Assembly (NCBI GenBank): GCA_019359595.1
Contig: JAHHGZ010000001.1
Coordinates: forward strand, 186,001-250,000
Direction of reading: 5' to 3'
Source of the DNA: Cyanomargarita calcarea GSE-NOS-MK-12-04C
GTDB taxonomy: Bacteria; Cyanobacteriota; Cyanobacteriia; Cyanobacteriales; Nostocaceae
Length of the DNA stretch: 64,000 bases
The notes below the pieces were generated by a model. That model saw nothing but the letters and a program-made list of their open reading frames with translations. It had not been told where the DNA came from and did no database searches. A program made the position numbers and the translations under genes. This document shows, piece after piece, positions 58,636-61,351 of this stretch. Position 1 is the first letter of the stretch; each line of letters opens with the position of its first letter.

Positions 58636-59572
58636 CTACAGCCACGCAATCTCTGAATGGGTCGAGTGTGTGGTTTGCGGCAAGCGGTGCCGTCTTACAG
58701 AAGATCGTAAATCAGCGATCGCCTGCTTAATATCCACATTTTCCCAACGCTGCGCCCAAATTTGTTCTTCTGAGGCGCATTTTTTAACTTTTTCAAACAA
58801 CTGACCAAAGGTATGTGGTTGCGCTAATTCCTGTGCAAGCCATTTAGTTGGAACTCCTAGGGTGTCTGACAAAGCTGCTAAGTCGGTATGAGTTGGCATT
58901 GAGCCGTTTAGGATACTCCACCACATGACTCGTAATTGCCGACGTGCAGTAAAACGAGTTTCAATAGCCAAGGCCGACTCTACCAAAAATGATTGCTGTT
59001 GTTGGCCCATTTTTGCCCACTCATTTAACTGATTTGCCAAACCAATGTCGGTACGTCCGCTTTGTCGTGCCGATGTCACTACCCGCACTAACGGACTGTG
59101 GCGAAAACGGGCATTTACCCGCACCAAAGCCTGATAAAACGCTACATCTTCGGGTGCCCGTACAGGTGGTAAGCCTCCTGCAAGTGCATACATTTCTACC
59201 GTCACCGCCAAAGAAGCCCCATAATGTTGATAGTGCCGGGGAAAAGTATCCCATTCGTCGGGGTCAAGGTAACTTTCTAATTCTGCAATCAAGTAGCGAT
59301 AGCCGACCTCCCGCAGATGGCAAGCTTTGGCATAGGGGTCTAATGCCGCACGTCCAGCCTTATCAGTCAGAATTCGTCCAGTCAACCTGATGGGCTAAAG
59401 CAGCCAGGGTTTGTACCAATGTCTGAGCTTCATTGCGAACCGGAACAATTACGCATAGTTCACAATGCTTTGACGGTGGTGTTTGGACTAAAGAAGAAGA
59501 AGTATTCCAGTGAAGTTGTGCCCCTGGAAAGTCAGCAACGACAAGCGAGCGCTTACTTTCCATAAAAAACAT
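58636..59572 (-). pseudogene. GT2 glycosyltransferase, internal deletion and frameshift
   Basis: The N-terminus CVIVPVRNEAQTLVQTLAAL then AHQVDW ends at a stop. The next frame continues TGRILTDKAGRAALDPYAKA, CHLREVGYRYLIAELESYLD and PRHYQHYGASLAVTVEMYAL to the end. The central catalytic part (DxD region, roughly 150 residues) is missing at about 59385. Confidence 0.8.
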
Positions 59573-59799: not shown

Positions 59800-59970
59800 T
59801 TAAAGTAATAAATAATACTTTAATATATTTGATGTTCGCTCCAAATCCAAATCTGGTTTGGTATCGTCGTACCAAATTATGTAGGACTTACCAAAATATT
59901 TGGTGTTCATCAAGCACGCATTTAACCACTCCATCACTGATTGAATTTGTTCCCCAATAATTAACTTCAC
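59800..59970 (-). CDS. 56-residue ORF overlapping an RHH gene
   Basis: GTG start within the TGA stop of the RHH gene (GTGA overlap). VKLIIGEQIQSVMEWLNACL, YFGKSYIIWYDDTKPDLDLE. No family recognised. The overlap suggests coupled translation and a two-gene module. Confidence 0.45.
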   Translation of the reverse strand: MKLIIGEQIQSVMEWLNACLMNTKYFGKSYIIWYDDTKPDLDLERTSNILKYYLLL

Positions 59971-60146
59971 TCTTGACCCTCTAAAATCTTTTTCCCCTCT
60001 GCGACATAAGGAGCTATTGAAGAGCGGATGATTTCACTCATAGTTGTATGATTTTTGTCGCACCAAGCATCAAAAGCAATCCTATCATCGGGATTAATCA
60101 CGACTTGTATGTATACATTTTTGCGTCCTAATTTTTTTCTAGGCAT
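59967..60146 (-). CDS. Small ribbon-helix-helix DNA-binding protein
   Basis: 59 residues. MPRKKLGRKNVYIQVVINPD, DAWCDKNHTTMSEIIRSSIA, PYVAEGKKILEG. A basic beta strand (VYIQVVI) followed by helix-turn-helix (MSEIIRSSI) is the RHH/CopG pattern. Its ATG is 20 bp from a perfect 34-bp palindrome, its likely operator. Confidence 0.75.
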   Translation of the reverse strand: MPRKKLGRKNVYIQVVINPDDRIAFDAWCDKNHTTMSEIIRSSIAPYVAEGKKILEGQE

Positions 60147-60165
60147 GGTTTTTGATTCATACTAC

Positions 60166-60199
60166 TTATTTTATCATGATATATATCATGATAAAATAA
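60166..60199. promoter_or_regulatory. Perfect 34-bp palindrome, likely RHH operator
   Basis: TTATTTTATCATGATAT followed by its exact reverse complement. It sits between the RHH gene (minus) and the divergent 64-residue gene (plus), where a self-regulating RHH dimer would bind. Confidence 0.7.
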
Positions 60200-60252
60200 T
60201 CTAGGGACAAAAAATCCCCCCTCTTGGTTAAATACAAAAAGGAGGTAATTGA

Positions 60253-60447
60253 TTGAGCAAAAATGGTAACGGTCATAGAAAGTTCTTTAATCCTGCCAGA
60301 GTTTTTCTCCGTTTGCTGTCCGGGCTATGGGAAAAACGTGACATGGTAAACGATGAAACCTATCTCATAAACGCCGATGAAGTCAAAGACAATTTGGCAG
60401 ATATGAGCGATGAGGAATCGGAAGAACTAGGAAGTGACCGTAATTAA
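60253..60447 (+). CDS. 64-residue hypothetical protein, divergent from the RHH gene
   Basis: MSKNGNGHRKFFNPARVFLR, then an acidic tail DEVKDNLADMSDEESEELGS. The TTG start is supported by AGGAGGT 7 bases upstream. A basic N-terminal half and an acidic tail. Unknown family. Confidence 0.6.
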   Translation: MSKNGNGHRKFFNPARVFLRLLSGLWEKRDMVNDETYLINADEVKDNLADMSDEESEELGSDRN

Positions 60448-60460
60448 TTAAATCAACAGT

Positions 60461-60486
60461 CCCTAGAATTTATTCTAGGGGCTTTT
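60461..60486 (+). terminator. Terminator of the 64-residue gene
   Basis: CCCTAGAA-TTTA-TTCTAGGG then GCTTTT. Confidence 0.8.
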
Positions 60487-60511
60487 CTACTTAAATAGGT
60501 TTGATAAAATT

Positions 60512-60829
60512 ATGCCAAGTTTAGGAACAATCGTTTATCCAGTTCATTGTCGGCTAGTTGTACGTCGTCGTGATAGTTGGTATTTTACTAAAGGCGACGT
60601 ATTTGTAAATTTATTTAATATTCCAGTCCTTGAGCAGAAAGATTTATTTGCCTGCTTTGGTACAACTATGAAAGAAGTCGCAAACGAACTGAAAATTATT
60701 AATGGGGGTAAAGAGGGATTTTACATAGCTGACATATTAGAAAAAAAGTACTGCTACTGCGGTGATAGTTGGAAAGACGTAAAGATTAAGCTTCAAGAAC
60801 TAGGAATAACAAGACCAGATCCAGTATAA
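60512..60829 (+). CDS. Hypothetical protein
   Basis: 105 residues: MPSLGTIVYPVHCRLVVRRR, DVFVNLFNIPVLEQKDLFAC, EGFYIADILEKKYCYCGDSW. Soluble, four cysteines including CYC. Not recognised; AT-rich and in the accessory stretch. Confidence 0.5.
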   Translation: MPSLGTIVYPVHCRLVVRRRDSWYFTKGDVFVNLFNIPVLEQKDLFACFGTTMKEVANELKIINGGKEGFYIADILEKKYCYCGDSWKDVKIKLQELGITRPDPV

Positions 60830-60934: not shown

Positions 60935-61351
60935 ATGCTGCAAATTTCCAATAAAGTCATCATCCCAGAGAGTGAAATTGAACTGACTGCAATTCGCTCT
61001 CAAGGGGCCGGAGGTCAAAACGTTAACAAGGTTTCCACTGCCATCCACTTACGCTTTGATATTAGAGCTTCATCGCTACCCGATTTTTATAAGGAACAGC
61101 TTTTGAAACTCAGCGATCGACGCATCACCCAGGAAGGAGTTGTTGTGATCAAAGCCCAAGAACACCGAAGCCAGGAGCAGAACCGAACCGAAGCGTTGGA
61201 ACGACTTAAAGAACTTATTAAAAGTGCAGTCGTAGTGAAGATAAAACGCAAACCGACAAAACCGACTCGCAATTCTCAAAAAAAGCGTCTAGACCAGAAA
61301 ACCAAGCGCGGACAGATTAAGTCTAACAGAGGGCAAGTTACGGATTCTTAA
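60935..61351 (+). CDS. arfB: ArfB/YaeJ alternative ribosome-rescue hydrolase
   Basis: 138 residues. The GGQ motif is in RSQGAGGQNVNKVSTAIHLR; the basic tail (KKRLDQKTKRGQIKSNRGQV) would enter the mRNA channel. It releases peptides from stalled ribosomes. Confidence 0.95.
   Translation: MLQISNKVIIPESEIELTAIRSQGAGGQNVNKVSTAIHLRFDIRASSLPDFYKEQLLKLSDRRITQEGVVVIKAQEHRSQEQNRTEALERLKELIKSAVVVKIKRKPTKPTRNSQKKRLDQKTKRGQIKSNRGQVTDS

Follow-up and report, generated by a model that had tools for sequence, protein, structure and literature searches.

A mobile cyanobacterial cassette with a ribbon-helix-helix-type gene, a palindromic operator-like site and a pair of small genes

Ribbon-helix-helix (RHH) proteins are frequent regulators of plasmid copy number and partition genes, and the operators of the MetJ, CopG and Arc type consist of short palindromic sites in tandem, on which dimers sit next to one another. 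In the omega-epsilon-zeta system of pSM19035 a separate RHH repressor is combined with a small acidic protein and a second protein. On the Bacillus plasmid p576, the RHH repressor Reg-p576 gates transient establishment genes, including ardC; the transferred DNA arrives without the repressor, and its cargo is then expressed transiently, a logic that was likened by the authors to anti-CRISPR control (PMC8708921). The Acr-associated regulators (Aca proteins) are described as helix-turn-helix proteins which follow acr in the operon (PMC9410906).

The locus reported here resembles each of these systems in part. The RHH-gated establishment regulon of p576 appears to be the closest working model: both have an RHH repressor that controls, or in the cyanobacterial case is predicted to control, its own and strong outward promoters, as well as small genes of obscure function that are located on mobile DNA and form a variable cargo. 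The cargo, however, is unrelated, the phylum is different, a single autonomous cassette replaces a multi-operon regulon, and transient expression would have to be assumed for the cassette. With acr-aca operons it shares a small acidic protein under what is presumed to be a strong promoter, a predicted inverted-repeat operator and a small repressor of its own, insertion in phages and plasmids, and an exchangeable regulator; in contrast, this regulator is of the RHH type and lies divergently in the locus studied or upstream elsewhere. Since Acr-associated regulators are described as helix-turn-helix proteins (PMC9410906), an RHH cassette would by definition not be an acr-aca operon. Only the three-part layout is shared with omega-epsilon-zeta, whereas the cassette has no zeta-type kinase, a terminator splits the pair, and the protein presumed to be the toxin is retained where its partner is gone. 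The operator-like site is built from tandem short palindromic sites as in MetJ, CopG and Arc, but with the site TATCATGATA and a spacing of 12 bp.

Layout and gene set of the cassette

The window, that is, the whole 64 kb stretch of DNA analysed, belongs to a 7.9 Mb genome whose relatives are Nostocales cyanobacteria. Positions 59967-60829 form a self-contained mobile cassette composed of an RHH-type gene (RHH59), a palindromic site, the divergent gene F64, a terminator and the gene F105 (Table 1). Cassettes of this kind measure about 900 bases and are carried by cyanobacterial plasmids, phages and chromosomes. Their anatomy is well supported and is held with high confidence.

Table 1. Features of the cassette and of the adjoining open reading frame, in window positions.
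Feature	Position	Strand	Basis and remarks
56-aa ORF, remnant of a member of F115, a plasmid family of ~115-aa proteins	59800..59970	-	adjoins the cassette, not a working part
RHH59, gene of a 59-aa ribbon-helix-helix-type repressor	59967..60146	-	ATG start, clear Shine-Dalgarno site absent; selection, alignment, Pfam
Perfect 34-bp palindrome, presumed operator	60166..60199	.	two TATCATGATA sites; role suggested by strict co-occurrence with RHH59
Presumed -10 box TAAAAT of the RHH59 promoter, left palindrome arm	60168..60173	-	predicted from sequence
Presumed -10 box TAAAAT of the F64 promoter, right palindrome arm	60192..60197	+	predicted from sequence
Short 5'-UTR stem-loop	60203..60219	+	weak here; most relatives have a stronger one of altered sequence
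F64 ribosome-binding site AAGGAGGT	60239..60246	+	sequence
F64, gene of a 64-aa acidic-tailed protein	60253..60447	+	TTG start; selection
Intrinsic terminator between F64 and F105	60458..60486	+	hairpin 60458-60483, AGTCCCTAGAA-TTTA-TTCTAGGGGCT, then a T-rich tail
F105, gene of a 105-aa protein, partner of F64	60512..60829	+	directly behind the F64 terminator; profile searches, selection

An earlier sequence-only reading of this DNA had listed RHH59, the 56-aa ORF, the palindrome, the 64-aa gene and the terminator hairpin, all of which were found again at the positions of Table 1. Of the three-gene set that it proposed, RHH59 and F64 stand, the 56-aa ORF turned out to be a fragment of another family, and the true third gene, F105, had been overlooked; the corrected gene set spares experiments on the wrong ORF. 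RHH59, the palindrome and F64 are conserved across related genomes, and the genes are under purifying selection: according to the Nei-Gojobori method, dN/dS between the window and Calothrix CSU_2_0 is 0.14 for F64 and 0.19 for F105, and that of RHH59 against its relatives ranges from 0.08 to 0.26 where calculable. The idea that such genes are too small for usual annotation was mistaken, as RHH59, an F64-like gene and F105 are all annotated as hypothetical proteins on plasmid pNOS7524.01 of Nostoc PCC 7524.

Two neighbors of the cassette were also noted. The glycosyltransferase-like gene on its left (58636-59572, minus strand) looks frameshifted, with ORFs 59363-59572 and 58636-59385 overlapping in different frames. 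Directly behind F105 lies arfB (60935-61351, plus strand), whose DNA is 81% identical to the arfB of pNOS7524.01, a plasmid that also bears an RHH59 cassette.

Relatives of RHH59 match the Pfam profiles PF19839 RHH_9 (E 3e-4) and PF01402 RHH_1 (E 2e-3), and the RHH59 of the window itself reaches only E 0.08 against RHH Pfam profiles. As the relatives do not reach the curated cut-offs, the basis for the RHH assignment is these sub-cut-off Pfam matches together with the operator-like site. An RHH59 profile gave no sequence match in the PDB.

The palindrome is separated from the start of RHH59 by a measured 19 bp, in agreement with the proximity reported earlier. No other perfect palindrome without a loop and with arms of at least 9 occurs in the 64 kb, where about 7e-6 loop-free perfect palindromes with arms of 17 would be expected by chance, and it contains two TATCATGATA sites (60172-60181 and 60184-60193) spaced 12 bp from centre to centre. 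Tandem TATCATGATA-like sites 12 bp apart occur between RHH59 and the divergent gene in all ten RHH59 loci and in none of 17 loci with other regulators; from this strict co-occurrence the palindrome is the predicted operator of RHH59, to which the protein would bind. TAAAAT or TATAAT boxes stand at both palindrome ends and point outward, so that the region has the appearance of two divergent promoters around a central operator. A generic promoter scan yielded no excess over shuffles. The earlier view of a self-regulated module of plasmid type is supported by the co-occurrence of RHH59 and palindrome as well as from the presence of cassettes on plasmids and in phage contigs.

The signals for expression differ among the genes. 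The match to the Shine-Dalgarno consensus has a median of 8 nt in F64-like genes and of 3 in F105, and amounts to 3-4 in RHH59. Behind F64, a hairpin resembling a terminator was found in 50 of 54 cases, and an upstream hairpin stands out in 35 of 53 F64 genes at p<=0.05, the best hairpin being the operator itself in some loci. An Rfam search returned chance-level matches only. Taken together, the signals suggest much F64, little F105 and a slow build-up of the repressor.

Regulator exchange and the recombination joint

F64/F105 cassettes use RHH regulators of at least three classes (RHH59, RHH68 and RHH74), a classification based on sequence patterns and BLAST groups. RHH68 is a small RHH-like gene located upstream of F64/F105 in the same direction (23 loci), and in Calothrix CSU_2_0 and a further genome (G018) it takes the place of RHH59 on the other strand. 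RHH74 is a second class, also divergent, and is accompanied by GTTAAC-centred palindromes. The F105 tree shows at least 10 changes of regulator class, and even the window and its sister Calothrix CSU_2_0 carry different regulators. In a DNA comparison, window positions 60239-60819 are 90% identical to Calothrix CSU_2_0 (G091, L096), and the block 59973-60197, comprising RHH59 and the palindrome, matches the loci of other genomes instead. Thus the swap of the regulator is visible in the DNA itself, with the F64/F105 side matching the sister and the RHH59/palindrome block matching other genomes; in general, the cargo pair is kept together while regulator and operator are exchanged as a block.

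The 56-aa ORF overlaps RHH59 by 4 nt (GTGA) at the RHH59 stop, and the sequence-only reading had likened the layout to a self-regulated toxin-antitoxin or plasmid-maintenance unit. The ORF aligns to the middle of the ~115-aa family F115, common on cyanobacterial plasmids, and window positions 59907-59951 resemble the F115 gene of Calothrix CSU_2_0. It was beside RHH59 in none of the other RHH59 loci examined. The mixed DNA matches around RHH59 and this lone pairing indicate that the GTGA overlap is best read as a recombination joint and not as an evolved coupling; the ORF is, on these comparisons, the broken middle of a member of an unrelated family that was joined to RHH59 by recombination. 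It was consequently rejected as a cassette partner, and a toxin-antitoxin pairing of RHH59 with this ORF is not supported. The F115 family itself is widespread on cyanobacterial plasmids (e.g., NZ_CP050441.1:47168-47512), and its member in G018 had no Pfam match.

Pairing and distribution of F64 and F105

Profile searches of related loci located F105 within 200 bp downstream of F64 in 28 of 29 F64 loci. The distances of the two proteins are correlated (r=0.83, n=54; Mantel test, 0 of 2000 permutations as high), in a test that leaves phylogeny in. Within RHH68 loci the correlation between F64 and F105 is 0.90, and the two values that involve the RHH protein are lower (0.56 and 0.62); as shared ancestry feeds all of these correlations, it is the contrast between the values that counts. 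On this evidence F64 and F105 appear to co-evolve, and F105 is the real partner of the 64-aa gene.

The pairing is asymmetric. A mechanical test detected an acidic gene upstream of F105 in 61 of 93 loci, and among the F105 loci without one a diverged or broken F64 was recognisable at just four; thus about a third of the F105 loci are without an intact acidic partner, with the reservation that many loci come from draft or metagenome assemblies and some broken genes may be assembly errors. The genome of the window has four F105 genes, with an intact F64 only at the window copy. F105 is intact at the other places, where F64 is interrupted at what appears to be a single locus divided over two contig ends (C61/C73), has been lost although its terminator is still there (C36), or is absent (C24). 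The split in the first of these copies seems to lie inside F64 at the end of G000:C61 and the start of G000:C73 (L214, L211) and was probably caused by a repeated element. Where F105 has no local F64, copies elsewhere in the genome may help.

In a sample of 194 genomes from across the phylum, 8 had F105, almost exclusively members of the window's own family, and 112 relatives were detected in GTDB contigs, above all in Nostocales. It was also found on 9 plasmids and in 8 IMG/VR contigs; annotated phage genomes contained none, and the phage occurrences therefore consist of the IMG/VR contigs only. In two phage contigs (L121 and L122) the cassette lies between the terminase and portal genes; its neighbor is the tape measure gene in another (L118) and the terminase gene in a fourth (L123). 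Judged from gene order, this place among phage structural genes, with a presumed promoter and a terminator of its own, is that of a phage moron. Several genomes contain many chromosomal copies outside obvious phages, and nearly identical RHH74-F64-F105 islands of about 960 bp occur in unrelated chromosomal flanks (L153, L165, L171 and L179), around which no terminal repeats were seen by eye. A GIY-YIG-like protein is encoded behind F105 in the two genomes whose gene order is most similar (L095:10655-11323 and L096:10039-10689).

On plasmids, the cassette adjoins ssb and ardA in pNLP3 and lies near ssb in pn2, and in pNOS7524.01 and Fischerella plasmid3 it is far from ArdA or the antirestriction gene. 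Linkage to anti-restriction genes was inconsistent on fully read plasmids and was dropped as support for an anti-defence role. Constant linkage to rep or par genes on plasmids was not found either.

Neither F64 nor F105 had a convincing match in Pfam or PADLOC, nor did F105 in NCBIfam or F105 and the F64 of the window in PHROGs; matches of F64 to PF14754 and of F105 to Tectonin were weak and scattered and were set aside. The structural model of F105 (pLDDT 85) had no match at E<0.3 among the PDB and viral models (best VIA Z 3.3), which does not imply a novel fold, and the SH3- and HisRS-like matches of the F64 model were not trusted because that model is too poor (pTM 0.47). In the databases searched there was no known toxin or antitoxin family for F64 or F105, a result still compatible with a new family.

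Possible functions of the cassette

The best explanation, tentatively preferred with slightly less than even confidence, is that of an RHH-gated accessory operon of mobile elements expressed in a burst, by analogy with RHH-controlled plasmid establishment genes. Dimers of RHH59 would occupy the two TATCATGATA sites next to each other and so shut off both the RHH59 promoter and that of F64, whose -10-like boxes are the ends of the palindrome. Upon entry of the cassette into a repressor-free cell, or when the repressor is low, F64 would be produced in a burst by means of its strong ribosome site and a short, terminator-ended mRNA, and F105 would be made at a lower level by read-through past the terminator. 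The poorly translated RHH59 would accumulate slowly until the switch closes again. The small acidic F64 and F105 would act jointly in an establishment or host-takeover function, possibly anti-defence, of plasmids and phages. An establishment or anti-defence function of the two proteins is the best guess, held somewhat short of even confidence, and the more specific proposal that cyanobacterial plasmids and phages have in them a new pair for anti-defence or host takeover, in a modular cassette with a block-swapped RHH regulator and operator, is possible but rather unlikely. The many chromosomal copies outside obvious phages would be unusual for pure anti-defence genes and count against the best explanation.

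The cassette could instead be a three-component toxin-antitoxin (addiction) unit with the layout of omega-epsilon-zeta, in which the RHH repressor governs an abundant acidic antitoxin, F64, and a weakly made toxin, F105. The tight pairing and co-evolution of the two proteins would agree with this, as would the far stronger signals of F64 and the terminator between the genes, expected where an antitoxin is in excess, and the mobility of the unit, with many copies on plasmids and chromosomes. It is nevertheless unlikely, since F105 is often intact without F64: an intact acidic partner is lacking at the third of F105 loci mentioned above, F105 is intact with F64 broken or absent at three further places in the genome of the window, and no known toxin family or fold was matched. 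The same asymmetry is what would be expected of an orphan antidote if the roles were inverted, with F64 as the harmful protein, held off by the RHH regulator, and F105 as the antidote in a toxin-antitoxin or effector-immunity unit; F64 is almost never without F105, F105 often outlasts F64, and co-evolution would fit as well. The translation signal of the presumed toxin would then be much the stronger of the two, and its gene would precede the terminator; the inverted arrangement seems improbable. A role in ordinary plasmid housekeeping, in which F64 and F105 would tune replication, copy number or DNA transfer under RHH auto-control, is in keeping with the frequent control of copy number and partition genes by RHH proteins and with the cassettes on plasmids. 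It is quite improbable, given that cassettes also lie between phage structural genes and in chromosomes without other plasmid parts, and that rep/par linkage is not constant.

Whichever function applies, the cassette is a recognisable accessory unit of cyanobacterial mobile elements with two nameless protein families that have no convincing fold match. The block exchange of regulator and operator in front of a fixed pair means that further members may be found by their regulators. Should F64 and F105 target host defences or the host cell, they would open a way to study the conflict biology of plasmids and phages in cyanobacteria, which is poorly known.
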